From assembly GCA_021234155.1 (NCBI GenBank), contig JAJEKV010000420.1, forward strand, positions 62,001 to 126,000: a stretch of 64,000 nt of DNA, given 5' to 3'. Below are positions 10,485 to 64,000 of the stretch, in pieces; positions within the stretch are counted from its first letter, which is position 1, and every line of letters begins with the position of its first letter. The notes beneath the pieces were generated by a model that saw nothing but the letters and a program-made list of their open reading frames with translations, was not told where the DNA came from and searched no databases. Origin of the DNA: Isoetes taiwanensis (lineage: Eukaryota; Streptophyta; Lycopodiopsida; Isoetales; Isoetaceae). The position numbers were made by a program, and so were the translations under genes.

Positions 10485-10603
10485 GGCAATAGAATTAATG
10501 ATAGCTAATTCATATACGGTATAATTCGTATATGATGTGATGGAATCATAATTACAACTGCGCCTACTAAGCTATACGAAATCTTGCATGCAACTACTAT
10601 ATC

Positions 10604-14156: not shown

Positions 14157-14180
14157 GAAATTGCGCTAAGCGTGTATTGC
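14157..14180. promoter_or_regulatory. palindromic site in ParB intron 1, copy A
   Basis: AAATTGCGCTAAGCGTGTAT followed by TGC, lying 15 bases before the splice acceptor. Copy B has the same site at the same place (46627-46650). Confidence 0.6.
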
Positions 14181-15407: not shown

Positions 15408-15520
15408 GTCAGGCGTGTATTGAGGCTGTCAGTTCGCGCCTGGTGCGAATTGTTAGCATGAGTACACGCCAGAAGCAAATTGGGCACGCAATAGATTGCC
15501 AATTCGCGCCTGTTGGCAAA
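15408..15520. promoter_or_regulatory. cluster of four palindromic sites, copy A
   Basis: Sites at 15408-15422 (TCAGGCGTGTATTG), 15431-15452 (AGTTCGCGCCTGGTGCGAAT plus TG), 15459-15480 (TGAGTACACGCCAGAAGCAA) and 15500-15520 (AATTCGCGCCTGTTGGCAAA). They fill the presumed intron after the DGQHS exon, matching the dense cluster of copy B at 44961-45345. Confidence 0.65.
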
Positions 15521-15760
15521 CTTCTGCGTGCCCAAATCATTTCTGGCATGTACTTGTGCACGAACTTCATGTTGGAGGGTACATTGGTAGAGAAGCCCTG
15601 AAGACATCAAAAAGATGTCTTTCATCAACGATGACCAGCCCAGGGATCGTTTCCTTGAAGTGTTCTTCGAAAAGCCGTGGCTGTCAAAGATAAAAATCCG
15701 TTTGCTTTGATACCTTACAAAGGGAAGAAGCAGTTGTTTCTTACTATGTGAAACTGATGG

Positions 15761-18885: not shown

Positions 18886-19021
18886 ACAGTAAAAGCTTTC
18901 ATTATAACCAAAATCTGAATCTGCCCTAAATAGTATCAGAAATTCTTAGTAATAGATTCGTCCTGCTTATGTACCTCAAAAATCTACATCATTGGCGACT
19001 TCACAAAGCACAAGCAACTTA

Positions 19022-30286: not shown

Positions 30287-31229
30287 TTTTGGGACAAATT
30301 TCATATTGCATGTTTTTAGTAGCATGTTCAAATTCACATATTTCATGTTGAAATTATGAAGAAGTAATGTCATATTACTTGGAGAACAGACAATATTTTG
30401 TAAAATAGCACGATATCATATATAAATCTAATGAAGAAAGTATATCCACCTTGCAAAAATCATTCTAGCATTTATATAGTAACACCGAGTCATTTCCACA
30501 AAGCTAGAGCTATCACACGGCGAATATATATATCGTATATATCACATTTAAATTGCATCCATGCCAAACATAATTTTATATACCAAACCAAAAGCCAATC
30601 AAAAGAGTAGTATCTAAATTAGAAATATGTAAAAGAGCTGAATAAAGAACTGTATCAAATTTATATATTATTTTCATCTCAATGCTCCAGGATTATAATG
30701 TCATAAATTTGAAAAACTTGCCAATTTTTTTTACATATTTCAAGTTCTATGTAAATGACACATGATTTTTTGGTGAAGTTTATGTCTATTATGAATAATT
30801 TGGCTATGGGGATGACAGTGCATGAAGTGTTAAATTCACACCCAGAACTAGATAGAACGGCTGACATGGAACCACACCTTGTTAAATACGTGGAAAAACA
30901 TGGATTGATTCTTTAATGTTTTATTGGAATATATGATATTTTTATATGATATTTGTGTCATGTATCCATAATTTCGGGTCTCCAATGGCCTCACAAATAA
31001 TATAATCTGCTATTATCTAACCTATTATTTTCTTCTTAATACTCTTCAATTTTGGTGTCATCTATCTTAGCAACTTGCCCTTCATTTTTGTATATTTCAA
31101 TTTGCATCTGAAATGACACATGGGAATTGCAACTTTATGTTATTTATCAAGTCCAAACAAAAGATTAAAAAAAAAACAAAAACCCCCTAGAAGACACCAG
31201 CAGGTTGGCGTGATTTTGGAGTTGAATAT
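30287..31229. other. older element remnant to the right of the Helitron
   Basis: Continues the repeat terminus interrupted at 16841. It holds the coding fragment at 30773-30916. Otherwise AT-rich. Confidence 0.45.
30773..30916 (+). pseudogene. orphan homologue of the ParB-element C-terminal exon
   Basis: The frame VKFMSIMNNLAMGMTVHEV, then HPELDRTADMEPHLVKY and GLIL, stop. It matches the end of the minus-strand frame at 42131-42436 (FMSIMSGLASGKTVSDVV, HPELDQTKEMDPYLESY, GLVPT). About half of the residues are identical and the stop codon is at the same place. It shows the C-terminal domain is conserved in an older, independent copy. The function is unknown. Confidence 0.65.
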
Positions 31230-34703: not shown

Positions 34704-36591
34704 TTGGAAGCTGATCTTGAAACTGGAAGAGAAGAAAGATCTGGCATGGAAAAAGATGAGGGAACTTACAGGACATTTGATATCATCCGAGATCAGCAAA
34801 ATGCAGCCATTGAATGTATGGGTATCAAGAAAGAGGGTCAGATTCTCGCCTGTCAGCAAGAAATCACCAGACTGGAGAGACAATACGCCGAGGGGAAAGC
34901 CAATGACAGGGATCTGGTCTGGAATATGATAAATAGACTCCAAGACCTTGACTTATTGCTCTATCAGATGATTCGAGTCAAGTCCGGGCACTCCAAAGAA
35001 GACTGCTGCAGCCTCAAGAACCAAGTCTTCAAAAAATCGATGACCGACCTTCTCCAGACAACCAAGGACCTGGCAGAGGACTTAGAGCTCATGGAATGGA
35101 AATCTAAGGCTACTTTCCGACTGGTTCGGGTATGGGAGAGTGCAGATGACCACAAGATAATTGAATTCAAGGAAAAATTCAAAGAAGATCTGTCCTTGAT
35201 AGCTGCAGAGGAATTAAAGAATGTGAAAGTAGATTATGACACCTTCATGCACAAACTTGAACCAACCAAGGAGTGCATGATCAGTGATAGCAATGGCTAC
35301 TTCAACCCCCGAGATGCAGGAGAATGCCCTTGTCCCAATCAGTAAAAAGTAGTCAGCCTCCACTTGGACAAACGGGTCAACCAAGATCTCGATTCCAAGC
35401 TTAGGTCAAAGATTCCAACTATGGGCAAGTATGACAAACTAAATGGTACGTCCCCTTCATTCAAAAATGTTCTTTTAAATTCTGATAGGGGAGAAAAGAG
35501 TAATAAAAAACAGGAAAATGACACTTATACTAAGGGGTCTCAGGTTGATCTTTTTGCTATTAAGGATAATGAGGCTAAAGTAAAATACTCTGCTAATGGG
35601 ATTATGATTCATTTTCCTGCTAAGTGTCCTAACATAAGTGAGGTTAAGCATTGGTTTAACAGAGCCATAAATATCCCCATTCTTTCCATCCTTAGAATGG
35701 ACTCCAAAACCTACCAAATCTTATGCGAGACAAAGAATCACGTAAAAATTATGCTCACAAGGAAAATTTCTTCCATAGCTAATTGCCGGTCTACATTATG
35801 GACCTGGAATCCCTCTATATCCCCGGCAATTTTTCTGGTGTTGCCACTACTACTTGGGTTTCCTGCCCAAACCTTCCCCCAAATTTCTGGACTCATAATC
35901 ACCTTACTGCTATAGGAAGCTGTCTGGGGGAAGTTGTCGATATTTCTATCCCACAAACCGACTTCCCCTCTATCTGCATTTTGAAAGAAATTGAATCTGA
36001 CTGGGAGAAATTCATTGGTACCAGGATTGATGAAGACATCTTTCTAGATGTTGTAATCAAGTATTCCAAAATTCCTGTCAAAAAGGAATATAAGGAAGAT
36101 AAAGCCCCCCCTGATAAAGGAAAGGCTCCAATGTACCCCCCCAGCCTAAAAAGGTTTGGGTTCAGAAAAAGCCTAACAGTAGCAAGCAAGAGGGAGATCT
36201 CTGCAGTAGAGGGGAAACCAGCAAACAAAGGAATGATAATCCTATAAACATCATTCCTCTTATGATCTGCTGTGCTAATAAGGTGAATAACATTGAAAAT
36301 ATCAAGGCAAATAATGTGATTATCGAGGAGATTGAAGAGATGAAGGATGACAAAGCTTTAGTTATAACAGAAGAAGTTTTGGAAGAAATTCACTATGTTT
36401 ATGATAGTGACCATTCTGAACAGCACTTCCTAGAGCAGGGGATTGAAAGGGACCTAGATAAAGAAGATGAAAAAGGCTCTTGGGAACTGGTCACATCAAA
36501 CAGAAAAAAGAGAAATAAAAAACAAACCTTTGAAGTCTCAAGGAGAAGTTCAAGGGTCCAGAAAAAAAAAACCGATTTTTATGGATATTAA
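34704..36591 (+). pseudogene. L1 ORF1 with DUF4283-like domain, frameshifted
   Basis: In L1 elements ORF1 is an RNA-binding chaperone. The first segment (34704-35345) is a long charged coiled coil (RLERQYAEGKANDRDL, LQDLDLLLYQMIRVK). The second (35364-35770) has HFPAKCPNISEVKHWFNRA and SKTYQILCETKNH, a region placed like DUF4283. The third (35783-36247) continues with ILKEIESDWEKFIGTRI. The last (36262-36591) is a basic-acidic tail ending 11 bases inside ORF2. It needs three frame changes, so this copy is not functional. No CCHC knuckle is visible. Confidence 0.7.
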
Positions 36592-39500
36592 CTTTAGATG
36601 TGTATCTTGGAATCTCCAAGGTATTAATTCAAATGTCAAACGAGATAGGCTAAAAGTTTGCATTTCATCCATTAATCTTGACATGATTTTCTTTTCAGAA
36701 CATAAGCTTCATGATGATGATTTTGAGAGGCTTATAGCTAACACCCTTCCTCCTAATTTTAGACTTTGGGCTATTAGGGCAAATAATAACTCTGCAGGTA
36801 CTTCTATAGCTTGGAAAAACAGTTTAAATATATCCAACATTCAGATGATGCATGGCAACTGTGGGAGATGGCAAATTCTCCATGGAGATCTCGGAACCAA
36901 AAGGTTTGCCTTTGTCAATATCTATGCTCATAATCAGCCTGGTGAGAGAAGTCCCATGTGGAATATAATCAGAAATAGCTTAGCTAATATCCCTTATGAT
37001 AACTGCATTCTTGCTGGTGATTTTAACATGGTTACTCATGATTTTATGAGGAGTACTAACTTTAGACCTCTCCTCAACCAAGAGCAGAATTCTTGGGGGC
37101 ACCTTATCTCCATGCATGATCTTAAACTGGCTAGAACTCAACCAAATACTTTTAGCTGGTTTAATCAGAGAATTGATGACCCTATCCACTGCCTTCATGA
37201 CCGTTTCTATGTCAGTGAGAACCTTTGGAACCAATGTGATAGGGTTTCCAATCTAAATGGCTTTACTATCTCTGATCACTTTCCCCAGTTGCTGGAAATA
37301 AGAGGAGACACCTCAAATGCCAAGAGAAAATCCTACTTCAAATTAAATGTCTCTCTTCTTGATCAGAATACCTTTCTTCCTGAATTTGAACAGGTTTATA
37401 GGAAGACCCCTAAACCTAGAGATCAGTTCGGATGGATGGAATGGTGGGTGAAAACTGCCAAAAATATAAAAAACTGGCTCAAAATCTGGGGTAAGCAGAT
37501 TTATAATCAAGAAAAGCAGTACCTGGTGGACTTGAGAACTCAACTCCAGCAAACTCCCTTGGATCAGCAAGAGAATATAAAAATTCAAGTTGAGAGAGAA
37601 GAACTCAAAATTGCTAAAGGTTGGAAGCTAAAAGCAAAAATCAGGGAACTTAAGGATGATGAGAGGAGTAATTCCAAGTATTTCTTTATCAAAGCTAAAG
37701 GGAGGGCTAAGAGAAATCAGATCTATAGTGTAAAGGTCAATGGCAATCCCATCTCTGAGGACAATGATCTTAAACAAGCCGCTTTCTGCATCACTTTTAA
37801 GAGAATAATGGGAACCTCTCCTACTACTAGGGAGGAGAATATTGACAATTTCATTCAGATTCAGAGATCCATCCAAGATGAGCAGAATGATAGCATGAAT
37901 GCTCCTTTTACCAATGAAGAACTGTGGGCAAATGTTTCAGGTATGGAAAATGGTAAGACTCCGGGTCCTGATGGCCTCCCAGTGGAATTTTTTAAAAAAA
38001 CTTGGAATATTATTGGAAATGAGGTTACTAATGTGTGTAATGAGTTTTTAATTCTCAGGAATCTAGACTGCAGAATCAATACCAGCTTCATCTCCTTGAT
38101 CCCTAAAATAGATGAACCTGAAACTTTCTCTGATTTCAGACCCATATCCCTCACCAATGTTATTTATAAAATCATCTCTGCTACCATAGCCTCTAGACTG
38201 AAACCTATTCTGGATCTCACCATCTCCAATACCCAAAGTGCTTACCTAAAGGATAGGTCCATTCTAGATAATGTTGCCACAGCTATCATTGGCATGCATT
38301 GGGCTAAAGAAACTAAACAGGACATTGCCCTGCTCAAACTGGATATTACTAAGGCTTTTGACACGGTCAGCTGGAGTTTCCTTTTCAAATGTTGTCAAAA
38401 GATGGGGTTCTCCCAGGAAGTGATAAGTATTTTTCAAGCCATCCTCTACAACTCAAGATCCTCGGTTCTGATCAATGGAGAATGCAGCCCTTTCTTTGAG
38501 ATAAAGAGAGGCGTCAAGCAAGGTTGCCCTCTCGCCCCTTTTCTTTTTCTTATAATCATGGAAGCCTTGAATTGTGCTTTCAAAAAAGCTGACCAGGAGA
38601 AGAGAATTGTGGGACTCAAACTTCCTGATAATCAAGAGGCATGTTTTTTCCTTAATGCTCACTTTGCAGATGACACTTTTCTCTTTGTCACTATGGAAGA
38701 AAGATCCATCACAAACACCCAAATTGTTCTCCAAGACTTTGGAAATTGCTCGGGATGTAAGATCAACCCTCTCAAATCCAAGCTCATTGCAAGAAATCAG
38801 GTAAAAGGGCAGCAAACTGCCCAAACCCTTGGCTGTGAGTATCTCTCCCCAATTATTAAATCTAAAATCTTGGGTATTCCTTTTGCTTTAAGGACTAATG
38901 CTAGTAATCTTTGGGGGGATATTATTGAGAAATTCCACAGAAAGGCTGATCTCTTAAACAGTAAATATCTGTCCAAAAATGGAAGAGCTATCTTAGCCAA
39001 CTCGGTTATTTCTTCTTCTCATGTTTACCAGTCTTCTATCCTCTTAGCTCCTAAAAAGGTCACTTCTAAACTCCAGGGCATTTTAGGTAGATTTATTGCT
39101 AGTGGGGGTAGCAATGTAACCACGGGTTCCGTTTCCATGAAAGAATGTATGAAGAAAAGGAAGCATGGTGGTCTTGGAGTTCGATATTGAGAAACAAGGG
39201 CTGGCCCCGGGTACCAAATACATTTACAGAGCTGGCCATGATGAGATTAATCACCCTGTGTCAAAGCTTATTAATCATTACCTTGCTAAGTGTAAACCCT
39301 TCGGGTGGAGAAATGTGAACATGCACCTCCCTGAAAGCTTATTCTTTGATTTCAAGGTTCCTAATAATACTCCTCGAATCATTAAAAGTGGATTAGAGCA
39401 TGGAAAGCGATTAGCGAGGATGTATTCTTGGAAGGAGGGCCTTTCTAAGGATCAAACAATTTTTTGGAACCCCTCTCTAATTCTAAATAACCCTGACATC

Positions 39501-41027: not shown

Positions 41028-41804
41028 TGGCAGTGTGAAATGACTGAGGTGGTTGTAGATGCTGGAGAGAAGATAGAGTAACACATGTCGTACCAGTTGC
41101 AGATGGCTATGTAATGGGGAGCAGCATCAAATCTATGCATGTTGATCTTTGGCAGACATGTTTAGGAACGAGGTGAGCCCGTACCACCTGAGGATTCATT
41201 TGAAGTGGCATGGAAAGTCAAGGAAACGTATGGTTACACTTGTGCTGACATTGTCAAGGTAGGCTATTTCTTTGTCCTTATTTGGCTATTTACAGTCCTA
41301 CCCAAGGTCCATTCAAATTCATCAGGATGAATGCGTTAATTTTTGAGCAACATTTTTCCTTTTGGGCCCTGTAAATTTCAATTTGTGTGCACAAATGCAG
41401 GAGTTTAACAAGCATGATAAGGAGCCTGCAAAGTATATAAAATGCAAAGGGTCGGGCGTAAATTCCAAAAAACAGGCGGATATATGTTTGTGAGATCGGA
41501 TATGAGCGTTTTCTTGCACCAGAGGTTTGAGTGTGGACCTTTCTTATGTTTGAATGAAAGGCAGGCCGTTTTATACTGCTCCAATGGCTGCAATCTGTTG
41601 TAACATAGCTGTGAAACTTTGAACAGAATCAACAATTGTTGGCAGTCAAATTTTCACTTTCTTTTTTTTTTTTTTTTTTTCTCTTTTCATAGGTGTTCTT
41701 CTCTCCAGAGATTTATAGCGGTGACTTATACTGTCCCTCTCCCAGACGCTGTATATAAATGCATACAAGCATCACCAATAGACACAACACATGCTTTATA
41801 CAAG
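41028..41804 (+). pseudogene. ARP3: actin-related protein 3 (ARP3) exons, upstream part
   Basis: ARP3 is the actin-like subunit of the ARP2/3 complex that nucleates branched actin. Three exons are visible. 41028-41258 encodes MTEVVVDAG, THVVPVADGYVMGSSIKSM and [20 protein letters not shown]. 41401-41524 encodes EFNKHDKEPAKYIKC and CEIGYERFLAPE. 41693-41804 encodes VFFSPEIYS, then PLPDAVYKCIQASPID and ALYK. Each is flanked by GT and AG. Small frameshifts occur in all three, and the N-terminal exons are absent. The next exon is at 53635, beyond the large transposon. Retained introns point to DNA-level capture or duplication, not retroposition. Confidence 0.9.
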
Positions 41805-41872
41805 GTTGATTCATTTTTTATAAGCCCCATATCTGGGATATAGTAGCAGTGAAAACTTGAAGCTTTTCTTAT

Positions 41873-41903
41873 AACCATCATTCATTTAAATTGGATTTAT
41901 GTC
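41873..41903 (+). repeat. left TIR of copy B
   Basis: 31 bp, identical to the reverse complement of 53563-53593. Preceded by the target duplication TTAT. Confidence 0.95.
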
Positions 41904-42810
41904 TGTTCCAAAAGCACGCCACTTTTGCATACCCTTTTCTCAATATAGTGTTTTGTTGTGTGACATGCTGTTTTGCATTGTTGCAAATTTTTGCATTGTA
42001 GTACTGGGTGGTTTAACATTTTCTTATTTTAGTGAGAAGAATGTGGTGTTTGATTAGCATTTGTAGATAACAACACATCAATATACAGAGAACACTTTTT
42101 ACATTGTATTCACTTGATATGAAGATTACATCATGTAGGGACTAGTCCTTTCTTTGTCAAATAACTCTCAAGATAGGGATCCATCTCCTTAGTCTGATCT
42201 AGTTCTGGATGCGTTTTGACAACATCTGATACTGTTTTACCAGAAGCCAAGCCACTCATGATGGACATGAATAGTACTAGAAACTCAACTGTTGAGTAAT
42301 CTTGTGGAGTATAAGTTGGTGGATTTAGAGACTGACCTTGATTATAAAAGCACTTAAGAGCATCATCATCTACTATTATGATGTCCTCTTTCTTTTGAAT
42401 GCCAAGCTGATCCATCATAGTACCAAGATGTTTCACCTAAGACCGGTTTGCCATCCGGATCTCTTGGATGTGGAAACTTTATACACTTACTTTGGTCCCA
42501 AATCGTCACAAAGTCTCAATTCATGCCCGGTAACACCCTAAGTACTTCATCAACATTTTGCGTTCCATTGAGGACCGGATGGCAACTCAAACAATCTGAA
42601 CGCCTCATTCATCATATCTTCTAAGTGTGGACGAGGATAGATCCACTTAGTATTCGATTCTAGAGGGACTTGCTCAAGTCATCACTGTTAATAAGCTTCT
42701 TAGGAAACATTTTACACAAAGACACCATTCGATCGAAGACAATGATTTTGTCACAAGCGGTGGAGCCCCGAACCATGGAAAACAAAGAGTTAGCCATGCA
42801 AAAGTGTTCT

Positions 42811-42873
42811 CAATACACGCCAAGCGCATTTTATCCTTCATAACAAAGCTACATATCGGCCGGGCGTGAATTA
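42811..42873. promoter_or_regulatory. two palindromic sites, copy B
   Basis: CAATACACGCCAAGCGCATT (42811-42830) and ATCGGCCGGGCGTGAATTA (42855-42873). They lie between the methyltransferase-like part and the last coding segment, probably in an intron. Confidence 0.6.
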
Positions 42874-44960
42874 CCTTTCATCGCCGCCGCCATCCCAGCA
42901 GATCTTTAGCGTCTACTTCACTCCCCCGGATGCTTATCGAAGCATGAACGCCACCGTTAAGTTCGGGATAACGTTCTCTTCTATGAAAGCTACCACGGGG
43001 GTTTGATTCCTAACCTCGGTGGTTGCATCCGAGCTTGCATGATCATCCTGGCTGGTATCAGGAACTGCCGCACTCGTACCCCCAACCTAAACATTACGAC
43101 CTCCTGGAATGTTATCAAGCATGGACGCCAAATTTTTCTCCATGCTCTCACGTTCCCGCTCTAGCATTTCGGCCTTCTCCTCGGGGTTGCATTGCTTTTT
43201 GAACATTCTCGAGTTGCACTCGGAGGCTTTTGTGAACTAGTATTCCTTACGCCCCTTCGTAGAAGGTACCAAAGCCAACACTTTTTATCTTTCACGGGAC
43301 CCCAATCAGCCGTGGCTAGTACCTTTTCGAAAAACACTTCAAGGAAATCCCCGGACTGGTCATCGTTGGATCTAAACTTAAACATCTTCTTGATGTCTTG
43401 TGGCCTCTCTACCAATATACCCTCCAACATGCAATTCACAGCAAGTGGTATCAAGTGGTGCAAATGCCTCAACAAGATAGCTTGCCAGATTGATTGCAAA
43501 CCCATGTTTATTCAAGGGTCCCTTTTCTTTTGTCAGCAATTCCAGAGTGATGTCTTTGCGGTAGAGGTTAGGAACATCAAATTCCTCGCATTCATTTTCT
43601 TCATCCTCATCATCCGCTTTGTAGAAGACATTTTTCAAGTTGGGTTCATCGAAGAAAACACCGCCATGCACCTTTTATCCGATGCCCCTTTGCTCTTAGC
43701 TACCTCATAGTCGCTATCCGCACAAGGGATATCATTATGAAGATTATACAAGCGCTTTTATCTTTGATCCTCAAATCAGTATCCTTTGTCTCAAAGAGAA
43801 GAGAGCCTTCCCTAACGACCTTTAGGCATTCCAAGTCGTATGAAGCCATCAAAGCATGCATATGAGGCTCTCCTGGGGGGCATATGATGACAATAGTAAA
43901 GAGTTTCTGAGTTGTTAAGCCTATGTAGCTACTAAAAAAACTGTTGTACTCCTGTTGAGCCATCCCCTTCTCTCCTTTTGCAGTCCTGCTATCCAATACA
44001 AATAGAGAAATATTACGAGGGCCTATTGTTGTATCGGGTAGAAGACCTTTATAGCCAGTAGAGACCAGGTATTGGAGTGCAGGTAAGTCACCACCAACAT
44101 CTTCTAGGACGGCAACCTTTCTTTTGAGCTCAGCCATCACCTTAATTTGATAGCTTTGAGGTGTGCTGTTGGTTCTTTGATTTCCTGTTTTACAGAAATT
44201 CCTTCGACCAAAAGACGTATTTCTTGATGTCATCAGCAGACACGCCATACTTGTCTAGCAGGCCGACTTCAGACAATGTTACATCACCGGATAGCTTCAA
44301 GTTCTTCACCAACCGCTACCTTCATAACTCGCATGTTCTTTATATGAGTGCAACAATCAATGAAGGACATTTTGTCCTTAACTGAAGAAGCCTTCTTGTA
44401 CAGAACTTCTTTGTTTATGCATTGATTTAACAACCAAATGATTTCATCATCTTGGAGGCCCTGTACTTTCCTCATCTCGGTAGTCTTGAGATCAAATATT
44501 GAAGTATCTTGAGGAGGCACTTTCGTCCCATTGGGTCCGGTAGCTGTTTTCGAGCATAAGCATCCGAACTTCGTTCCACTTCGCCCCGACTTCGTCCTTA
44601 AGCTAAGACGCATCTTGTAGGCATCTGAGGGACCTCGAAGCCGCCGCACGCCTCACCGCTTCCTCCCCCTTTTTTTTTTCTGCTTTTTGGCTCTTGGTTT
44701 CCTATCTTGGATGATAGTCCGAGACAAGGTCTTTTCCAATGCCTTAAACTCCTCGGACTTTGTTCCTCCCTGTTTTGTTTGCGTGGGTCTTCCATATTCT
44801 ATCCATTCTTTGGCGGGGCATGACGGAGTTGTTCCACGAAGGGTCGCGACGTGTAAGGAAAGCATGTCACCCAATATGAGCAGGGGCATACAAAAGTTAA
44901 CCGCTTTTAGATCAAGCAAACGGGATAATCAGGAAACGCCAAAGTGATGCGTTGCCAATC

Positions 44961-45345
44961 CTACCGGGCGTGTATTCATCCCGACATTTGGCGGACGAAT
45001 ACACGCCAGCGGAACCGGCAAAAAGATGAATACACGCCAGTCGCGGTCGCTACTGGGGTGTATTCGTCATGAACAGCAAAGATGAATACACGCCAGCGCC
45101 AATTGGCAAGCCATCGCATTCGCTACCGGGCGTGTATTCGTCCGCTGATGAAAATGCGTTCATTGGCAATTCGCTACCGGGCGTGTATTCATGCTATTAA
45201 AATTGTAAATTGTTGTTCATGTGCTCCATGGCCTCGAGGCCCAAGTGAGCATTAGACATTATATAATAATAATAATAATAATAATACCGCGGACGAATAC
45301 ACCCGGTGCGAATTGGCAAAGATGAATTCACGCCAGGCGCGAATT
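44961..45345. promoter_or_regulatory. dense cluster of nine palindromic sites, copy B
   Basis: Sites at 44963 (ACCGGGCGTGTATTCATC), 44997, 45026, 45052, 45083, 45124, 45174, 45294 (GAATACACCCGGTGCGAAT) and 45324 (GAATTCACGCCAGGCGCGAA). They occur in both orientations of the half-site GAATACACGCC / GGCGTGTATTC. Spacing is irregular (20-120 bases), and the flanking words CTACC or GATGAATAC and AATTGGCA also recur. The cluster occupies the presumed intron after the DGQHS exon. An (AAT)n run is at 45262-45286. Confidence 0.75.
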
Positions 45346-46626
45346 GGCACGCCTTGACAAACGCTGGACCTACTCTACTACTGTTATTGCTACTTGATAT
45401 ATCTGACTCTATTCCACCAAATATACTAACCTTTTATAAAGAAAGACTTCGCCCATTTCGTTCAATGTTGCACTAATCTACGCGTGTCCTCTGGGGTAGG
45501 GTATGGGGGCTTAGAAACCGACACCTCCCGTGGTTGTAATGCAGCCAGATACATTGTTTGCCGGTTTTGCTTAGCCTTGGTTGGATAGGGATCAAGCAGC
45601 CTCAATAGAATGTTGTCCGTCAATAATAAGGAAGCATACATTAGGGTTCTCCACGGTTAGCTCTTCTAGTGTTGTCCACTGGAGTGGAGCATCCTTTTTC
45701 TTATCCCAAGGAAGCACGTCTGCTGGCATAGGAACTTGGCCTGGATTCCTCACCATCGCCCTCAATATTTCTCTTGCATGCTCAGGGTCATACCTCCTGC
45801 TAACAAGACTTGACTTATGTGATCTCACCGCACGGTCAACATGGATGGGATGTGTAAAAGATTGGCCAAGTGGGTAGTTAATCCGTGATACTTGACTAGC
45901 CTACTCATTGCCTCCACCGCAATTTCTTTTCGAGTCATTTTACGCCAAAATGCCATCAATCAAGTTGGTAGCGTGGGGATGTCCTTTCCTAAGTCCAGCA
46001 ATCTTCGTACATCCCTGATATCATTTTGATGCTTCATCTCCTCCAGGTAGTAACTTGGAGAAGGTCCTTGCAAAGCTCTCCTCACTGCGGACACCCCTTC
46101 ACTAATAGAAACTGGATTGAGGACAGTATTTTGAGGCCATCCGTACTTGAAACATGACTCAGCACTCACGTCCTTCTTCATCAGACCATCTTTGAAAGCA
46201 GTTGCCCTGGCATGTGTAAATCTGACGAGATCTTTCTTGTGGTTCTTCACAACCTCCACTAGGAGTTGACAACAGATGTCATCCTGCTCCTCACAAGTGA
46301 TAAGAATACCTTGTTTCTTCATAAGATCGGTCTCTTTCTTTCTGGAGTGTAACACAAGATCCACCTTACCATTTGTTTTGCCTACATCAACATACCACTC
46401 GGCACTGTCATCCATCTTCTCCTCGAGGCATGGAGGATCTGTGTCTGCTCTGATAATGGATCCGCTATCATCCATCGACAATGCATAGGATACTGCGTCC
46501 TCATTGGGCTTTCCCTTCTTCTGTGAGCTGGAGCTCGCTGGAGTATCTTCCGAGCCTCTTGCTTTCTTAGGAGGAGGTGTAGGAACAGTCATTCGGTTTT
46601 GTCTCTTCTTCCCTGCAAACGACGGT

Positions 46627-46650
46627 GCAATACACGCTTAGCGCGATTTC
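46627..46650. promoter_or_regulatory. palindromic site in ParB intron 1, copy B
   Basis: GCAATACACGCTTAGCGCGA followed by TTTC, 14 bases from the splice acceptor, as in copy A. Confidence 0.6.
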
Positions 46651-47093
46651 GGGTGGTCATCAATTCCGGCCAGGCTAAAGCACCGAATGGCATACAGTCC
46701 CCAGTTACAGACATGCACTCATAAGGCGTGCCAATTACAGCATGCCGACCACACAGTCGAAGGCAGGCCAACTAAACACGGTCATACTACTTTACAAATT
46801 ATAGACATAACAGTTAATCACGAGCAGGACAATTTAACACAGGAAGGACATTTATTATGCAGATGCAAATACAAGTCACAGCAGAAATGAAACGACTAAA
46901 AGAAATGATAGGCGAGTGTATGCCTATAGAAATTTAAGTCACTGCTACAGAAATAATAGACAGGAGCATAGGCAGAAGATACAGAGCAATGAACAATAAA
47001 TGAATAACACACAGAATGATGACAATACTGACCTTGAGCATCTTCTCTCACGGCCCGGCCTGAGTTTGGAGCAACACGACCATTGGGCGGCAT

Positions 47094-47448
47094 CTTCGCG
47101 ATGATCTTGAGCGCCTCGGAGTTCTTGAGTTCCTGAGCGCCTAGGAGTTCTTGAGCGTCTCGGAGCAAGTCGACAATCAAAAAGCAAGAAATGGAATTCA
47201 AAAACTTATATAGATTTGCATAAGGCGATTAGGTCGGCTTTAGATCGACGGGTTTCATTCGGATCGACTTTTCATCGACGGTCCGATAAAAGCGAGCGGT
47301 TATTAAAATATCGCGGATCGACTTCTAATCGACGGTCCGATAGAAGGGAGCGGATATTTAAATTTTGCGGATCGACTTTTAATCGACGGTTAGCAATCTT
47401 ACGATTGGGCCTAATGGGACGGACGCGATCGATCGACGAAAGCGATAA
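47094..47448. promoter_or_regulatory. bidirectional promoter of copy B
   Basis: Between the ParB-like gene (minus) and the DUF8039-like gene (plus). The TATA box CTATATAAG on the minus strand is at 47205-47213. A tandem repeat of about 57 bases, each with GGATCGACTT and AATCGACGGTCCGATA, followed by GAGCGG and ATTAAA-like words, occupies about 47255-47395 in three units. This could hold binding sites of a shared regulator. The ParB leader (47095-47165) has a repeat of GAACTCCGAGGCGCTCAAGA type. Confidence 0.7.
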
Positions 47449-48018
47449 ATGGCTCTCCTAACCACCGTATTGTCAAATCCCATAATTAGATTTCACTCAG
47501 CGGCTAGAAAAGCAGTACAATTAACGGATAATTTGAAACTACCACCTAATCTTGCCGCCAGCCTTTCTTGTCATTCGAACTCGAAAGAACTTGGAAGAAC
47601 AGGAAGAACTCGAAAGAACTCGGAAGAACTGGGAAGAAGCCGACGCCTGAGCGATGTCGAGCGCTTTCATGTAAGTTCATCTACTCTTCCAGAACCCAAG
47701 CTCCAAATTAATCCCATGATCTTGCGACATTGAACAGCGTTGCGGAAGAATGCTACATCTTCGAATTTTAATTTGAAGAGGAGGGTGGGAAATTGCAAGA
47801 TAGAATCGGTCGATCGGAAGCACCGCCATGGAGTTCCTCTTGGAAATGATCATGTGAAGATTCTAGTAACCAGTTGCCATTTCAACGACGAAGCATTACC
47901 CAGAAGGCATCCTGATGGAGACACAGTGGGTGAAAGCATCGGAACCTTTGTTGCATGGCCAGTAATTCGCTTAAAGAAGGTGAGTTTCATTTTCTTGGAA
48001 GACATAGAGGAAGATTGA
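47449..48018 (+). pseudogene. DUF8039-like gene, copy B
   Basis: Exon 1 is 47449-47670, with donor GTAAGT; a 67-bp intron ends in CAG at 47735-47737; exon 2 runs from 47738 to 48018. Exon 1 encodes AVQLTDNLKLPPNLAASL and a basic RTRKNSEELGRSRR repeat. Exon 2 holds HGVPLGNDHVKILVTSC, HPDGDTVGESIGTFVAWP and a C-terminal acidic tail. Start chosen because both copies align from here. A small deletion early in exon 2 (near 47765) breaks the frame. Resemblance to DUF8039 of plant transposon proteins is from memory and tentative. It is divergent from the ParB gene and convergent with the coiled-coil gene. Confidence 0.55.
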
Positions 48019-48217
48019 GTGCTCATACTAAAATGCACAAACTGATTCCGTCATATGTATGAAATCATTCATTCAATATTGCAAAAATATAAGGCCTGCA
48101 GACCAGAGCATTCATGAATTCAAAAAACACTGTTTTCTTTACATGGATGGGATATTCTTTACATGGCATTCTTTACATTGTTTTAATTGCATCTGTGTGT
48201 TATTTATCTAGGTGTTA

Positions 48218-48598
48218 TTAATCTGTGTGTTGTTCCTCAGTAGTCTCAAATGCTGGCACAATAGTCTCAAATGCTGTTGAAAAAAGATAAACTGACATAC
48301 AAGATTCTGGCAAATAAAATAGTGCAGCTTTGAGGTCTGCAACTCTAATTATCAGCTTAGCATTTTCCATTTCAAGCCCCTCCATAGCACGGCCATGAGC
48401 TAATACCAAGCACCATGAGCTAATACCATTCAGTTGTAATTTAAATGCCATGCTAATTACTGTGTGTAATTCACGCCAGGCGTGTATTGGACTGCTTGAC
48501 AATTTAAACATTTTGTACACAAACATATTTCGCGCCTGGCATGATCTCACTTCAGCTCTCTCAAAATTAAGAATGAAAGATCGAATTAGATAGATCAA
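48218..48598 (-). pseudogene. small coiled-coil protein gene, copy B
   Basis: Only the C-terminal part (48218-48440) matches copy A: GRAMEGLEMENAKLIIRVAD, then IVPAFETTEEQ. The N-terminal part of this open frame (48440-48598) runs through a palindromic site and is probably not coding. The original start is lost. Confidence 0.4.
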
Positions 48599-49067
48599 AG
48601 CGAGAACTTCGAAAAGGGAGTAAGTCGGGCATGAAACAAGATCCGGTGGCTTAGTCTCTTTTGCTTCTCTGTTTTGTGTATCTAAAGTGCCCCCAGGATG
48701 AGATAAATTTCGCTCATTTTAGGGGACACTTTAAATATATAAAAGCAAGGGAACAACGTAAAGAGAGTAAAAAGGTCCGGAGCTTATTTAAAAAAGCAAA
48801 GCATAGTTACAATCAATTGTGATTCATTTCGGGTTTAGAGCATGGTGCCGTTTACTAATTCAGGTCTAAGCTCGTTCAAAGAAGTGAAATCCGCGCCAGC
48901 GCCGAAATAGGTTTGTGTGCAAAATGTTTACATTGTGCGAGGTCCAATACGCTGGCGTGGAACCGCATAAAGCTAATTGCGTGTGTAATTCACGCCCAGC
49001 GTGTATTGGACCGCTTGACAATTTAAACATTTTGTACATAAACATATTTGGCGCTGGCGTGATCTCA
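48467..49067. promoter_or_regulatory. six palindromic sites in a duplicated block, copy B
   Basis: Sites at 48467 (TAATTCACGCCAGGCGTGTA), 48529 (TTTCGCGCCTGGCATGATC), 48888, 48945, 48986 (TAATTCACGCCCAGCGTGTA) and 49048. The block 48460-48560 is repeated at 48980-49080 with ACCGCTTGACAATTTAAACA between each pair of sites. This is an internal duplication of a two-site module. Confidence 0.7.
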
Positions 49068-49440
49068 CTTCTCTCTCTCAAAATTAAGAATGAAAGAGCG
49101 AATTCAAAACAGTTTCTGAAGAAATTACAGTTATGCTTTCAAGTTAGAGTTGACACTAAAGAAATATATTGCAGTCATTAATCCTTGTATTGCCATTGAA
49201 AATTTTTACATAAGGCCTTTTATTAGAGTTGCCAGAATTCAAAGCGACCTGCCGAGAAATTAGAGTTACGCTTTCAAGTTAGAGTAGAAACTAAAGAAAC
49301 ATATTGCAGTCAGTAAATCCTTGTATTGCCATTGAAAAATTTTACATAAGGCCTTTTATTAGAGTTGCCCAGCTCTGTGTTACAAAATTACAGAAGTTCT
49401 AGGCAGTTTAAGGAGATGCCTAGCTCGCTCTTCTGAACCA
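48600..49440. other. AT-rich intergenic region of copy B
   Basis: No gene. Contains a duplicated segment (TTACGCTTTCAAGTTAGAGT ... GGCCTTTTATTAGAGTTGCC) at about 49128-49232 and 49263-49366, matching the pyrimidine repeats of copy A on the other strand. Confidence 0.6.
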
Positions 49441-49471
49441 AAAACTAAATAACAAAAACAAAACAAAAAAA

Positions 49472-49948
49472 TCAGCCCTCTACCTCCTCCTCTTCTTCCT
49501 CTGAGCTTTCATCTGCCATCCTCGTCAGGATGTCTTCGGCAACATCTTCATCATCGGAGGAGGAGAGGGCGTCCACAATCAGCTGCTTTTTTTCTTCTTC
49601 TAATTCTTCCTGCCATTCTTCATCTGCTTTCTCCATTTCTTCTTCTTTCTCAATCTCGTTCTCCATCTCCTCACCTGAATCAAGGGGAGTATGGGGACTT
49701 CGGGGCGGCCAGGTTGGTGCTCGGATAATCTTTTCGAAGCTTGCCCCAAAAAATAACTCCTCGCAATTATCCGGTTGTGGTGCGGAGAGCAGCCACAAGC
49801 GGCATCTGCGGGGGGGAATGGATTTCTTTATCAATTTTTTACTGCCTCTTAAGCCTCTCGGAGGCGAAGTCCGTGAGGATGGAGCGGGGACGAGGCGGGC
49901 AGCATGGCTCACCATGGTAGAAGGAAGAAAGGAAGAAAGGATTGGCAC
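49472..49948 (-). CDS. small acidic protein gene, copy B
   Basis: Open over 158 codons, or 147 from the second ATG (49915, MVSHAARLVPAPSSR), which is the start shared with copy A. The N-terminal half is basic with Cys (RRCRLWLLSAPQPDNCEEL). The C-terminal half is acidic and helical: EKADEEWQEELEEEKKQ, ALSSSDDEDVAEDIL, then Glu-rich to the stop. A TATA-like TTTATAAG lies at 49990-49997. No catalytic motif is visible. It is the only gene of the ParB half that is still open in this window, although a frame difference from copy A in the middle leaves its full sequence uncertain. Function unknown. Confidence 0.5.
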   Translation of the reverse strand: MPILSSFLPSTMVSHAARLVPAPSSRTSPPRGLRGSKKLIKKSIPPRRCRLWLLSAPQPDNCEELFFGASFEKIIRAPTWPPRSPHTPLDSGEEMENEIEKEEEMEKADEEWQEELEEEKKQLIVDALSSSDDEDVAEDILTRMADESSEEEEEEVEG

Positions 49949-50075
49949 TAGAAGGAAGAAAGGATTGGCGGTTGAAAGAATGGAGGGTTTCTTATAAAGC
50001 GGTTGTAATTATGATTCCATCACATCATACAAGATTTATATCATATCTGAATTACCTATCATTACTTCTATTGAA

Positions 50076-50437
50076 TTAATTCGCCCTAGGTTATCATAAT
50101 TCTCTATAGAATTACCCACATGTCGACTATACTTAAAACCTATGTTTTCATTAATTTTGTATAATTACCTAGACCCCAGCTATACTTACAACCAACTTTG
50201 GCCCATCTAGATTCACGACCTATACTTACCTCATTAGTACTACTAGCATACACCCTATGTTACCATTAATTTTGTAATAATTACCTACGCCTGAGCTATA
50301 CTTACAACCTATTTTTGGCTGCACTTACAACATATATTTGTCCATTTAATGGTTTTCTTGGTATTTCTTAAAGTTCCCTTTAATCGGTTCTCAAAATTAC
50401 TTTGTCCTTTTTTCTGACTAATATTAAGACATTTCAC
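50076..50437. other. spacer between the two halves of copy B
   Basis: Non-coding, with a direct repeat (CAGCTATACTTACAACC at about 50177; GAGCTATACTTACAACC at 50291; also TGTTACCATTAATTTTGTA). Confidence 0.5.
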
Positions 50438-51117
50438 TTTATATAGGTGAAGCGTGTGGATCCTAAAAAGGGTAAAAATGTAATGCCTATCCCTCCAACA
50501 TGTTTCAAGATTGTTACCACATGTTCTTATCATATTGTTACCCCATTGTAAACATTGTTCTTGTAGGTCAATGTTGTGGACCTCCCAAAGGGTGTTGAAT
50601 TTGAGACTACTAAGCAAATTGTCCTCTACGGTAGGTTGGATTGGAAGAATAAGAAGGTGAAAGTGAAGCACCAATGCAATAAAGAGCTAGTAGGTGAAGG
50701 GACTATCATACTAGCTGATCCTATCCAGGCTGTCAATGATGAAAGGTTAGGAGAGGATAAAGTGGGTGTGGCCATAACAAGTTTAGAGGAAAAATGGAAG
50801 GAAAAAGGATCAAATCACCAGGATTGCACTGCTTGTATTAAACAATTGGAGGTTCCATCGTCATGCCATGGCCTATAGCCTGCATTGAGTTTATAGGAGA
50901 ATTCCTTTTACCCGAGCGAGAGGTTGTGGATGACATTGATTTTCTTAATGCACCTCCAATAGCTGCCAGGACCACATTTTTGAGAGAAGAGGGCACACTT
51001 TCGGTGGTGAAACAGTATCCTAGCAAGAGGTCCAAGTCAAGTAGTGACCATTCACGTGAAGCTTCGACTAAGGTAAGGGGAATGGAATGTTGTTGGGCTA
51101 ATTGTGTTGAAGTTTGA
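50438..51117 (+). pseudogene. unassigned gene upstream of the DUF7869-like gene
   Basis: A TATA-like TTTATATAG at 50438-50446 precedes coding-like sequence. A probable intron ends at TTGTAG (50565-50570). The next exon encodes VVDLPKGVEFETTKQIV, EGTIILADPIQAVNDERLG and EDKVGVAITS (frame 50576), then after a one-base shift MPWPIACIEFIGEFLLPE and DDIDFLNAPPIAAR (frame 50863). The order G-x-I...V-x2-LGEDKVGV...MPWPIACI recalls the DUF8039-type layout of 47740-48018, so it may be a paralogue; this is tentative. It could also be the 5' part of the DUF7869-like gene. Confidence 0.45.
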
Positions 51118-53415
51118 AATTGATGAATTGGTGGAAGCAAGAGCCACCTTCCAAGAGTATACTTGTGATGAGAGGAGGACTTACATGTACTCCATTCATG
51201 AGCTTGCACTTCAAGATGAAAATTTCCAAAAAAAAAAATACCAATTGCTAGGGATATGGATATGTAAAGTTGCATGGATACATATTCATGGCATTCCAAT
51301 TTCATCTTGGCAAAATTGGCAAGCAAGTCATGCAAAGGGGAGTAAAATTGCATTACATGGAAATAATGGCATGTTGAGGCCAACTTCTAGGATCCTGGCT
51401 GCTAGGGAGGTTTTTGAAAAATATGTTGAATTCAATACTGAGAATATGCCACATAAAAGTAGGAAAGATCAACGGGGAAAAATAGTTGTCGAGAAGAGAT
51501 TGCCATCCCATTGTACCCGAAGAGCATATTGGAGGAAGTGAATGCTTTGCTTCGAGAACTCTGTGTACTGCAATATCTCAACCCAGCTTCAGTAGACTAT
51601 GGAGCAAGCACTTCAAGCATGTCACTATAGACACTTCGAACAACTTTGCAAAGTGCAACTTGTGTGCTAAGTTGAAAGAGTTTCTTGATAAGACCAAGCA
51701 ACCAAGCCAAAGGGCTAAGATAAGGGAGCAAATGAAAGATCACATGACAGACCAACTATCATGTAGATCTACTTATTGGATGTGGAGAACATTATCATGT
51801 TTGGAACCCAATAACTATGTTTGTATTATACATGACAAGATGGATCAATCGAAGACTTGTTTGCCACAGTATAGTTACATACCCAAGCAAATCAATAGAG
51901 CTTATCCTTTGCAAGTCTCTCTGACAGGTGCAATAGTGCATGGCAGGGTGCCAATTTATTATGGCCATTTTAGTTTGCAATTGTGGAGTGATGGTCCTGA
52001 TTTTCATATTGGAAGTGTGATGAGGTGCTTGAGGAATGAGAGTGGTTATTCCGGTGACCTCTACAACCCTGGAGGTGGTAGCCAACCACTCTTCAGTGCA
52101 TTGTTGGATAGAAAGCCTAATAATTTAGAGAAGTTTACTAAGGCAAGGTTTAGGAAGTCAGGTGCTTCTGAACATGTTGGAGCCTCAAGTTCACGTCCCC
52201 AACCTCGAGATCTACCACCAAGGTTCCTCCTCCAACTTGACAATTGTGCTGGACAGAATAAAAACAGGTATATGTTCTCATTCCTATCTTATTTAACAGT
52301 AGTGGGTGTCTTTGAAAAGAGTGAATTTAGGGTTCTTAATGCTGGACATACTCATGAGGATGTGGATGCATTGTTTGGGAAGTATAGTCTTGTGATTAAA
52401 ATCCCAAAGCGTGACCAATCTTCCTAGACTAATGGAAGTTCTTAGTGAATGCATTTCACCTTCTCCTATAGGGTTGATCATACAAGAGGTGCTGATTGGA
52501 AGAATTTTATCGAAGGTTATGCTCTTGATATGGAAGGTCAATCTAGACCTCTTCATTACACTTTACGGGTCATGGGAAATAAGCCAATCATGCAATGGAA
52601 GATGAGACCTTGAGGATGATAAATGGAGGCGGATGAGGGAGTACCTATATGGCACGAAGATGAAAATGGTAAACCTAAGATTCCAAGGGGTCAACCAAAA
52701 GCTCTTAGGCCTTTTCCAGAGGTGGATTCATTGCAAAGCACATTGGGCGGCATTTACGAATACATCAAGTATTGGAAAAATAACCCGATCATACCAACCT
52801 TGCATTGATAGATTATTGGACACGGTACATGGATTATTGGGACAAGTAGACACATCCTCCGATGAACTCAAAGATGGATGGCTACCTAAGACTAGGTGGA
52901 GAGACTTGATATTACCCGAGGAAGGCTGATGATGTGGTTAGTAGTATTCGCAAGTCCATGGCTCCTCCAATTTCTTTGAAAAACACTATGTTGGTCCTAG
53001 GAAAGGAAGGCCTAAATATCTTGGGCTGGAGGATTATGATCCGAAAAGATGACTTGCTTTGCCATCAATTTGCACTTATAGTACCAGGAAAAAAAGAGAT
53101 ATACCTGTGTGGATGGGTTACACCATCTCGAGAGGTTTGCAAAAAGTAGGTGACATAATGTGAACAAAGTTAGGTGTGGAGTGGTGGTGTCGTGCACCCA
53201 GTTAAATGCTGATGTGAGAGGAAGAAAGGTATAGAGACTGTTGGACAAAGAAATGGAAGAGAAACCCTATTGAAGGGGATGATTGGGTTGAGTTAGATAC
53301 TATTTTGTTTTCATGGACCCCAAAGGTCATCCCAGGCAAGACTGCTAGGGTTACAATACCCGTGGAAGTGAGGAAGAAAGCTATGATATTTCTAGGGGTC
53401 AATTCTGAGAAGTAA
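51104..53415 (+). pseudogene. DUF7869-like gene, candidate transposase, copy B
   Basis: The N-terminal frame (51104) has GIWICKVAWIHIHGIPISSW and AENMPHKSR-type sequence. The main frame (51486-52427) has KHVTIDTSNNFAKCNLCAKLK, IIHDKMDQ, VPIYYGHFSLQLWSDGP, LLQLDNCAGQNKNRYMFSFL and LNAGHTHEDVDALFGKYS. The later part (to TAA 53413-53415) has IRKSMAPP, GLEDYDPKDDLL-type and VEVRKKAMIFLG words in several frames. The D-N...QNKNR and GHTHEDVD blocks are the hallmarks I recall for DUF7869, which occurs in transposon-like proteins of plants and animals. The acidic residues could form a DDE-type centre; this is inferred. It is the only transposase-like gene in the element and sits beside the right TIR. 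At least three frameshifts disable it. Confidence 0.7.
52892..52899. other. empty site matching the hAT MITE target
   Basis: CTAGGTGG here corresponds to the duplicated CTACCTAG (on the other strand CTAGGTAG) flanking the MITE in copy A. The bases on both sides (GCTACCTAAGA and AGAGACTTGAT) match the flanks there, so this is the unoccupied version. Confidence 0.9.
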
Positions 53416-53562
53416 TTGGCAATATGTAACTCGACATGCATATGTGAAATATTTTTAATTTTTAATGCAATCATGTTGTGCTGTTATAAAAAAAAGTCAC
53501 ATTCTCGATGCAAATTTACTAACCCAGGAAAAAGTTGCAGTGCCAAAATGGTCCAAAATCCT

Positions 53563-53593
53563 GACATAAATCCAATTTAAATGAATGATGGTT
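53563..53593 (-). repeat. right TIR of copy B
   Basis: Exact inverted copy of 41873-41903, followed by TTAT, then ARP3 intron sequence. Confidence 0.95.
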
Positions 53594-53634
53594 TTATTTA
53601 GTGAGAAGTTATATGGTTTTTTGGTCACTTGCAG

Positions 53635-53756
53635 AATATTGTCCTCTCAGGTGGCTCAACAATGTTCGACTTTCAAAGGAGGCTTCAACGTGATATAAAA
53701 AAACTGTTGATGCTCGTCTTGCAGCTTCAACAGCTCGGTATGTTGAGGAGATCAAG
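53635..53756 (+). pseudogene. ARP3: actin-related protein 3 exon, downstream part
   Basis: Acceptor GCAG at 53631-53634, donor GTAAGG at 53757. It encodes NIVLSGGSTMF, then RRLQRDIKK and VDARLAAS, the actin-fold phosphate-2 loop of ARP3. It directly continues ALYK at 41804 in the normal order of ARP3 exons. It is missing two residues after STMF, and the following ARP3 exon is absent. The next exon belongs to a different gene. Confidence 0.92.
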
Positions 53757-53931
53757 GTAAGGGGTTATTATATGTGTGGTCTGATTTAGATTATTTACGT
53801 GCGGGACAGGAATTTTAATTTTTGGCTTTTCAAAATGTGGAGTTTTGTTTATTCACCGAAATGCATAGACTGCATATTGTTGGATATTGCTTCTACGGTG
53901 TAGTTATATTTTTTTCCCTTGTGTGTTTCAG

Positions 53932-54149
53932 TTGATGGACTAGCAAAATGCCAAACTTGGATACAAAATGATGATGATACATTAGAGGATCTAAATCAGT
54001 GGTGGAACAAGTTCATTGGACATTCTGCAAAATCAAGTGCCGAGTGGAGCTATCCGTTTGTGGAAGAGCTATTGTTTATCAGGGCAGGATGGGAAGGCCA
54101 TCTCATTCAGGCTGATGGAAAGCATGTTGCTTCGTTTCCATATGGAACA
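53932..54149 (+). pseudogene. hydroxyproline O-galactosyltransferase (GALT) exon fragment
   Basis: Acceptor TTTCAG at 53926-53931, donor GTGAGT at 54150. It encodes DGLAKCQTWIQNDDD, WSYPFVEELLFI and AGWEGHLIQADGKHVASFPY. This is the galectin-like domain region of plant GT31 galactosyltransferases that start arabinogalactan on hydroxyproline in the Golgi. Small deletions relative to the family. It lies immediately after an ARP3 exon in the same orientation, so it is part of a chimeric, captured assembly. Confidence 0.8.
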
Positions 54150-54417
54150 GTGAGTAATTGTTAGTCACTATTTCTGAAGACATTGATATACACTCTAGTG
54201 TGGCCACATTATTGTTGTACTCTCATCCAAAGTTCACAATAGAGCAGCTTATAGAGGAATGTGAAACTCTGATATCACTTCCATTGTCAAATTAGTCTTG
54301 CCTTGAGAAGGAACTTGTGTGAATTTGGGACTCGCGTGGAAAATTAGTAAAAGTGGGGCTATTCGTGTGCTCTTGTTTTTTGTTTTGAATGCTCTCGTTC
54401 TTTGTTTTAAAGATTAG

Positions 54418-60452: not shown

Positions 60453-60853
60453 AGGACCCGAAGGGCCCAAAATTTTTTTTAGTATAACAACCAACACATA
60501 ACTACCATTAACATTAATTAATACAACCATTGGGTCCAACACATTTAAATTAAAATTCCCCTTAAACCCCCTTTGGTTTGGGTGCATATTCAAACGGGGG
60601 GTGACGTAGAGCAGTCAAGAGCCCTTATAATTATATTTTGCACGTAGAAAATCAACACCATATAGTATTTTGCTTGAAATCTTATAGTATTTTGCAAATC
60701 TTGTTAGACAGTATAGCAAATTTTTTACTTGCATACCCCACAAACGAGGAACTTTACGTATGGTGTAGATTAAGGAATAAGGGGTGAATATGCCTATCCA
60801 ACAGCTCTAGTTTCCCGGAGTCAACCCCCATGTGAATATGCACCCAAACCCAA
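60453..60853. repeat. Rep-1 3' part with inverted arms
   Basis: Starts AGGACCCGAAGGGCCCAAAA. The left arm ACCCCCTTTGGTTTGGGTGC (60566) pairs with GCACCCAAAC near 60840-60849, and CACACGGGGGGT-type sequence pairs with AACCCCCATGTG (60823-60834). The unit between the arms is about 285 bp. Confidence 0.8.
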
Positions 60854-61740
60854 TTTAATCCCAATTTAATTAGATGATGGTTCATGTGCCTATTGGGGAA
60901 GAGCAGTGGGAGGTTCACCTTAATCCTGAGATGTATCTGGTGTAGGTAATTACTCGTGAAAAATCTCTCCTCATGTCATGAAGCACATTAACAAAGATGG
61001 AATTATTGTTGTGAGTCTACATAACTGTTGGTGCCATCCCCAGATATATAACGAGTTTATAACCCTATACCCTAAGTCAGATCTGATTAATCCAATCTGC
61101 AAATGACCGGAGATCGATGGGAGGTTTGACCATTGACATCTTGCGTCATCTAATGAGTGAGATATTCATGCCCTCTATCTTCGAGAAAAGATACGAGCCC
61201 AACCATTTCTCTCCTCCTCCTTCCTCAGTCCTAACCTGGTAGATGTGTACATTAGTTAGGGTTTATGGTGCATTGCATATTACAGATGTACTTAGATGCT
61301 CAATTTTATATCTCTTTGTGTATGTGTGTGTATGTGTGCGCATGTCCGCGTGCACGGGAGGTCCAAGTCTACGACAAAAAGATGTGGATAATGACTAGTG
61401 GACAACATGTAAAAGAAGAAAAAGAAAAACAAGATGTTGACGCATCACAAGGTTACCCTTTGGAAAAATGCGGTTCATATTTTTTTCATAATATTTTTTC
61501 ATATGGGGTATTTTGAAGCTAATACGAATGTAACAGATGACAAAAATTGAATGGATGTAATTGAAAAAGGGAGGCAAGTACCATATAAAAAATGGGAATA
61601 TATGTCTATGGAAAAGAACTTGGTTTTTCAGCTATGCTCTCCAATTAGTTGCTCCTGGGACAAGGAAATGTAATATGATCCGCACAAGAGTATTTGACTT
61701 CAGTGATACTTCTTAATTCCTAAGTACATTATTTTCTAGA
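60854..61740. other. no gene recognised
   Basis: Includes AATTTAATTAGATGATGGTT at 60852-60876, similar to the diverged element terminus at 16807 but inverted, and a GTGTATGTGTGTG run near 61320. Confidence 0.4.
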
Positions 61741-63593: not shown

Positions 63594-64000
63594 AAGGGCC
63601 CGAAGGGCCCAAAATTTTTTTTAATGTAGTAATCGACACATAACTATCATTAACATTAATTAATATAGACCATTGCATCCAACACATTTAAATCAAAATC
63701 CCCCTGAAACCCCCTTTGGTTTGGGTGCATATTCACACGGGGGGTTACGTAGGGCGCGAGAGCCCCAACAAATTTACAATACATGTACAAAATTAACACC
63801 ATTAAGTACATTATCTCAAACCTTATAGTATTTTGCAAACCTTAATATACAGTATACAAAAACTTGTACATGCATACCCCACAAATGAGGATCGCTATGT
63901 ACGGTCCAGATCTTGGAATAAAGGGCAAATATGCCCATCCGACAGCTCTCGTTGCTCGGAGTAACCCCCCGTGTGAATATGCACCCAAACCAAAGGGGGT
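63594..64000. repeat. Rep-1 3' part with inverted arms, runs off the window
   Basis: Hairpin AAGGGCCCGAAGGGCCC at 63594-63610. The left arm ACCCCCTTTGGTTTGGGTGC (63709) runs to GGGTTACG (63750). The right arm ends the window as the exact complement (63960-64000). Arms are at least 40 bp with few mismatches, and the loop is about 200 bp. Confidence 0.9.

Follow-up and report, generated by a model that had tools for sequence, protein, structure and literature searches.

A large multi-gene DNA transposon, most probably of Sola type, inserted in an ARP3-type intron of Isoetes taiwanensis

The window, i.e., the whole stretch of 64,000 nucleotides analysed here, comprises bases 62001-126000 of contig C131 of Isoetes taiwanensis, and the genome searched comprises 1,658,258,908 bases in 1110 contigs. 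Within the window, an 11,721-bp insertion (41873-53593) is located inside an ARP3-type intron. It is bordered by terminal inverted repeats and a 4-bp target site duplication and carries the gene of a DUF7869 protein and, on the opposite strand, a phosphatase-like gene and a long gene in several parts. The features are as follows:

6175-15727, minus strand: second, inverted copy of the element, its end at 6175 having 3 mismatches to the window end
41805-41872, plus strand: 5' portion of the ARP3-type intron split by the element, left TTAT included
41869-41872, no strand: left target site duplication TTAT, which occurs as a single TTAT at four empty sites
41873-41903, plus strand: left 31-bp terminal inverted repeat
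42137-42832, minus strand: NIF/FCP1-like HAD phosphatase-like gene, decayed in the window copy (tblastn with the 237-aa open reading frame of C834)
42893-44523, minus strand: C-terminal portion of the long gene opposite the DUF7869 gene (tblastn with the 550-aa open reading frame of C937)
45412-46020, minus strand: ParB/DGQHR-like part of the same gene with an IDGQHS motif, weak (tblastn)
46008-46637, minus strand: upstream part of the same gene (tblastn)
50606-53412, plus strand: gene of the DUF7869 protein proposed as transposase, decayed in the window copy, core at 51486-52427 (Pfam, tblastn, dN/dS)
53563-53593, minus strand: right 31-bp terminal inverted repeat
53594-53597, no strand: right target site duplication TTAT
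53598-53634, plus strand: 3' portion of the ARP3-type intron split by the element

The opposite end of the inverted copy was not found. Elsewhere in the window, a 910-codon open frame (36458-39190) looks, by eye, like a non-LTR retrotransposon with endonuclease and reverse transcriptase, and a 1.3-kb direct repeat pair (19021-20334 and 22352-23671) is 93% identical. Rfam gave no match in the window.

The terminal inverted repeats of the element are identical over 31 of 31 bp and flanked by TTAT on either side, as the first-pass annotation of this DNA had read them. Its further claim that removal of 41873-53593 together with one TTAT leaves a 105-bp intron with normal splice sites was confirmed by counting from the letters: the intron begins with GT at 41805, ends with AG at 53633-53634 and is restored from 68 and 37 bp. 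The adjacent coding segments had been described as consecutive ARP3 exons. This holds in so far as they match consecutive residues of the Arp3 chain 3dwl_A, the upstream exon weakly (residues 302-328, E 0.82) and the downstream exon more firmly (residues 329-352, E 7e-4; best match of that exon E 1.6e-5). However, single-base frame breaks were read by eye in both exons (41700-41804 and 53635-53760), and the segment is therefore referred to as ARP3-type and not as an intact ARP3 gene. As the I. taiwanensis assembly is Nanopore-based (PMC8566536), these frame breaks may represent assembly errors. The next coding stretch downstream (53904-54164) resembles another gene, not ARP3.

The joined flanks of the element (273 nt) were used as an empty-site query against the genome. 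Eight matches were obtained, two of them representing the window's own halves and six located at other loci; of the latter, four matched end to end at 92-94%, one over the full length at 83% and one partially. Junction letters were read for the four loci at 92-94%, all of which have one TTAT and no insert, while the 83% locus is known from the alignment alone. Empty paralogous sites, for which a search had been proposed, thus exist. They are the strongest proof of the element borders and represent paralogous ARP3-type segments, i.e., the locus is duplicated.

Genome-wide, the exact 31-mer end occurs 379 times (179 on the plus and 200 on the minus strand), and the reversed control does not occur at all. 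Among the 100 places listed, 23 inward-facing pairs were found, 9-34 kb apart. An exact 4-bp duplication was present in 20 of the 21 pairs checked out of these 23 (window included), the lone exception being C435 with GAAT versus TGAAT. Since C19b and C19c have identical flanks on both sides, these two are not independent and count as one event. The duplicated sequence varies (TTAT, CAAG, AGTA, ATAG, TTTA, ACCT, ATAC, TAAT, TAGC, CTGG, AGAA, CCAA, GCAA, TTTT, CTAT, ATTG, TATT); CCTC is also among the duplications found in this study. Seventeen full copies of 9.1-15.8 kb are collinear with the window copy and bear deletions and inserts; the copies C19a, C474 and C898 (14.6-15.8 kb) have extra inserts. 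The DUF7869 protein, the phosphatase-like protein and the long opposite-strand protein are common to the window and these 17 copies. By gene part, the DUF7869, phosphatase-like and methyltransferase-like parts were each found in 18/18 and the ParB-like part in 16/18, with partial coverage in two entries (one phosphatase-like part covered to 56%, one DUF7869 part to 60%). One conserved unit has thus moved repeatedly, by precise insertion with a 4-bp duplication, and paired ends, duplications, empty sites and the shared gene set bear out the earlier view of a large multi-gene DNA transposon.

Long open DUF7869 frames of about 75% identity pointed to another end sequence, AACCATCATTCAATTAAATTGGGATTATGTC, of which the genome has 1,441 exact occurrences, and a rarer variant of this sister type, ending in TATATC, has 16. 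Among the 100 places listed for the sister ends, 21 inward pairs were found; all ten of those checked (10 of 21) have 4-bp duplications, at a span of 12.1-12.5 kb, so that over the two subfamilies 30 of 31 checked copies have a target site duplication. The sister pair C112:184274-196560 encloses a DUF7869 match (194404-195300) at a distance of 1.3 kb from its right end, compared to 1.2 kb in the window copy. The window itself contains an exact end repeat of the variant with 16 genome places (16807-16837); the sequence inside this end did not match the sister right ends read and may be a derivative. At 30275-30910, a sister-type right-end sequence adjoins a phosphatase-like fragment (57% identical), which is probably the remnant of a sister-type element, an internal deletion derivative. 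Another related end, AACCATCATCTAATTAAATTGGGATT, is located at 60852-60882 and borders a repeat also present at 63595-63991 and 20198-20493.

The DUF7869 match in the window (E 1.2e-23) was obtained in a Pfam scan of 10 of the 38 window frames of at least 80 aa in and around the element, together with six proteins from other copies. In a loose first look at the genome, the window protein yielded 12,697 candidate places, of which 127 were scored and all 127 matched, and the Pfam DUF7869 model yielded 9,902, of which 150 were scored, the listed ones lying above the cut-off. Profile and protein searches of 14 control genomes gave no DUF7869 match. Codon phase across the copies was too noisy for a coding signal because copies drift after insertion, and dN/dS between subfamilies was used instead. 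The values of 0.11-0.21 (dS 1.07-1.53, nine pairs) led to the reading of the DUF7869 protein as a transposase. Inside the sister group dN/dS was 0.13-0.23 (three pairs), and the 0.48-0.63 inside the window's subfamily (three pairs) is expected given this drift.

In five aligned DUF7869 proteins, IIHDKMD, LDNCAGQNKN and GHTHEDVDALF are conserved, except for a G in place of A in L060. These motifs are recoverable in part of the copies, candidates for the third residue being the E or a D of HTHEDVD; the catalytic triad of Sola transposases is DDD. Searches against the PDB returned chance-like matches alone, and no relative of the transposase core was found in viral contigs with either the single sequence or the five-sequence alignment. 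More generally, the scans made revealed no DUF7869 relative in prokaryotes, phages or viruses. Of two genome-contig scans, the first was without a match, and the second gave a single one of 22 residues (L081), which lay antisense to a dehydrogenase-like frame and was judged to be due to chance. Pfam gives the domain no transposase name, and DUF7869 is absent by name from the literature searched, a body from which most subscription papers fall outside. By its low dN/dS between subfamilies, DUF7869 is likely to be the transposase of the element.

The phosphatase-like open reading frame of C834 matched Pfam NIF (PF03031, E 3.4e-15); its PDB match, to UBLCP1, was weak (E 0.0085). Genome-wide, 6,802 candidates were obtained and 150 scored; among the matches listed, a separate second cluster has 18 members of 58-63% identity, and stops are absent from 16 of these. 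Two members, C985 and C1058, can be paired with a DUF7869 match among those listed, which is oriented as expected and lies 16.9 and 22.3 kb away, respectively, from start to start; as the spacing in the window copy is 9.3 kb, inserts would be needed. Most of the 18 are unpaired because the DUF7869 places listed number 127. The phosphatase-like gene is likely present in the sister subfamily as well. Active enzymes of the NIF/FCP1 family have a second Asp in their first motif. In 10 of 17 aligned copies this motif reads DLN (6) or DPN (4), the remaining seven being out of frame or broken. With Asn at the second motif position, the protein may bind rather than cleave.

For the long minus-strand gene, the C556 open reading frame matched the NCBIfam DGQHR model weakly (E 0.063), and FLIIDGQHSIEA in the middle of the gene is like ParB/DGQHR proteins. 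In the C-terminal part, CPPG and DTTCCELHVGGYIGREALKTSRRCLSF were read by eye. Beta-class DNA methyltransferases have motif IV followed by motif I, and as CPPG and DTTCCELHVGGYIGREALKTSRRCLSF occur in this order, the part was read as a possible beta-class DNA methyltransferase; the motifs were counted after a ParB-methyltransferase parallel from Ectocarpus was known. Pfam and other HMM searches with this part gave no match, the PDB gave no meaningful one, and tblastn against phages gave none at E up to 1; in viral contigs, neither the methyltransferase-like nor the ParB-like part had a relative. The C-terminal part is a possible degenerate DNA methyltransferase, as a by-eye reading without HMM support.

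Taken together, we interpret the element as a large DNA transposon of the cut-and-paste kind and most probably as a giant, Sola-1-like element of Sola type, the comparison with Sola being one by description. Sola elements have 4-bp duplications and terminal inverted repeats of 11-1124 bp, are mostly 2-9 kb and in some cases more than 15 kb long, and are found in a moss (PMC10741241); in seed-free plants they are also described from Azolla (PMC6786969) and Ceratopteris (PMC6890710). A 4-bp duplication of unfixed sequence (20/21; sister subfamily 10/10), 31-bp ends within the 11-1124 bp range, copies of 9.1-15.8 kb and a seed-free host fit this description. Sola1-1_Ec32 of Ectocarpus (21.5 kb) carries a gene for a 1104-aa ParB plus DNA methyltransferase protein opposite its transposase (PMC12477816). 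Like it, the present DNA transposon is giant and has a long gene opposite the proposed transposase, here with a ParB/DGQHR-like motif, and this likeness of layout supports Sola-1 kinship as well as a possible ParB-methyltransferase nature of the long gene. In contrast to Sola1-1_Ec32, the host is a lycophyte, the size about 11.5-12.5 kb versus 21.5 kb, the methyltransferase part is not recognized by HMMs, and a phosphatase-like gene is present, the word phosphatase being absent from the main text of PMC12477816. One Sola2 group has AT-rich AWWT duplications (PMC3627910), and the occurrence of CTGG, CCTC and CCAA among the duplications of the present family is a point against the Sola reading. 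The Sola2-Fanzor1 chimeras of amoebozoa are similar in being of Sola type with an accessory protein, 4-bp duplications and short terminal repeats; however, their accessory is Fanzor1 and their duplications are AWWT, while those observed here are mixed (PMC3627910). Giant KDZ and EnSpm elements share giant size and accessory genes (PMC12477816), but no KDZ or CACTA transposase domain was found in the proteins scanned here, and the duplications are of 4 bp.

The first-pass annotation had stated that the ends and the 4-bp duplication are unlike those of CACTA, hAT, MULE and Helitron elements, and ends, duplications and Pfam agree. CACTA/EnSpm elements have CACTA ends, a 3-bp duplication and a CACTA transposase; here, the ends are AACC, the duplication is of 4 bp, and no CACTA Pfam match occurred among the proteins scanned. 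Helitrons have neither terminal inverted repeats nor a duplication, and the window element has both. The hAT duplication is 8 bp, and Chapaev-type CACTA relatives have one of 4 bp. For MULEs the duplication is 7-12 bp (PMC10741241); 4-bp duplications match neither hAT nor MULE, and no such transposase domain was found in the proteins scanned. TTAA, the specific target of piggyBac and Kolobok, is absent from the 30 duplications found. Ginger elements have TG..CA ends and a Gypsy-like integrase (PMC10741241), as opposed to AACC..GGTT ends and no integrase match in the proteins scanned here. Duplication length alone would favour another short-duplication superfamily, such as AcademX (3-4 bp), Ginger (4-6 bp), the Chapaev-type relatives (4 bp) or IS481EU (about 4, 15 or 25 bp; lengths partly from PMC10741241 and PMC10045372). 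We regard this as improbable, since Pfam revealed neither an integrase nor an XPG-nuclease or CACTA transposase domain (10/38 window frames and six proteins), the ends differ from those of Ginger, and the duplication length is uniform in 30/31 copies.

A stronger competitor, which we still consider unlikely, is a separate undescribed DDE/D superfamily with DUF7869 as its transposase, whose Sola-like 4-bp duplication would have arisen by convergence. The missing transposase name in Pfam, the silence of the searched literature on DUF7869 and the scans without prokaryotic, phage or viral relatives would be in line with it. Against it, Sola offers a precedent for the length of the duplication, for the size range and the host group, and for a ParB-like gene on the opposite strand. 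That the borders arose by coincidence, or that nested repeats form a composite here instead of one mobile unit, has next to no probability: the extra inserts of the three 14.6-15.8 kb copies might suggest nesting, but the ends are exact, duplications occur in 30/31 copies of two subfamilies, the copies are collinear, and the empty sites refute it. Of the two options left by the first-pass annotation, a new superfamily is not supported, Sola having been overlooked, and an unrecognised form of a known one stands as a probable large Sola-like form.

In the mechanism we propose for this probably Sola-type element, the DUF7869 protein would be an RNase H-type DDE/D transposase. It would bind to the AACCATCATT ends, excise the element and insert it at target cuts staggered by 4 bp. 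Binding and marking of element DNA would fall to the ParB/DGQHR-like protein, to which a DNA methyltransferase, perhaps a degenerate one, is possibly fused. For the FCP1/NIF-like phosphatase-like protein, possible targets are host proteins of transcription or silencing. Both opposite-strand genes would serve as conserved accessories. A gene content common to the copies, and probably to the sister subfamily too, argues for vertical inheritance over chance capture. With its decayed genes, the window copy could be mobilised only in trans.

In the I. taiwanensis genome paper, LTR elements are the most abundant transposable element class, and repeats resembling plant proteins were taken out of the repeat library (PMC8566536). 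Elements like the window transposon could have been lost at this filtering step. If, against our expectation, DUF7869 defined a DDE/D superfamily of its own, one lycophyte genome would hold thousands of its relatives, with phosphatase-like and ParB-type proteins as long-term partners, and the transposon would carry its own means of influencing transcription or silencing in the host. Under the preferred Sola-type reading, giant Sola-like elements that carry ParB-type accessories now have a vascular plant, a lycophyte, among their hosts, and the DUF7869 Pfam domain gains a likely role as a transposase. New are also the abundance of such a Sola-like giant family in a lycophyte and the phosphatase-like protein kept beside the transposase, in 18/18 copies compared and probably in the diverged sister subfamily.
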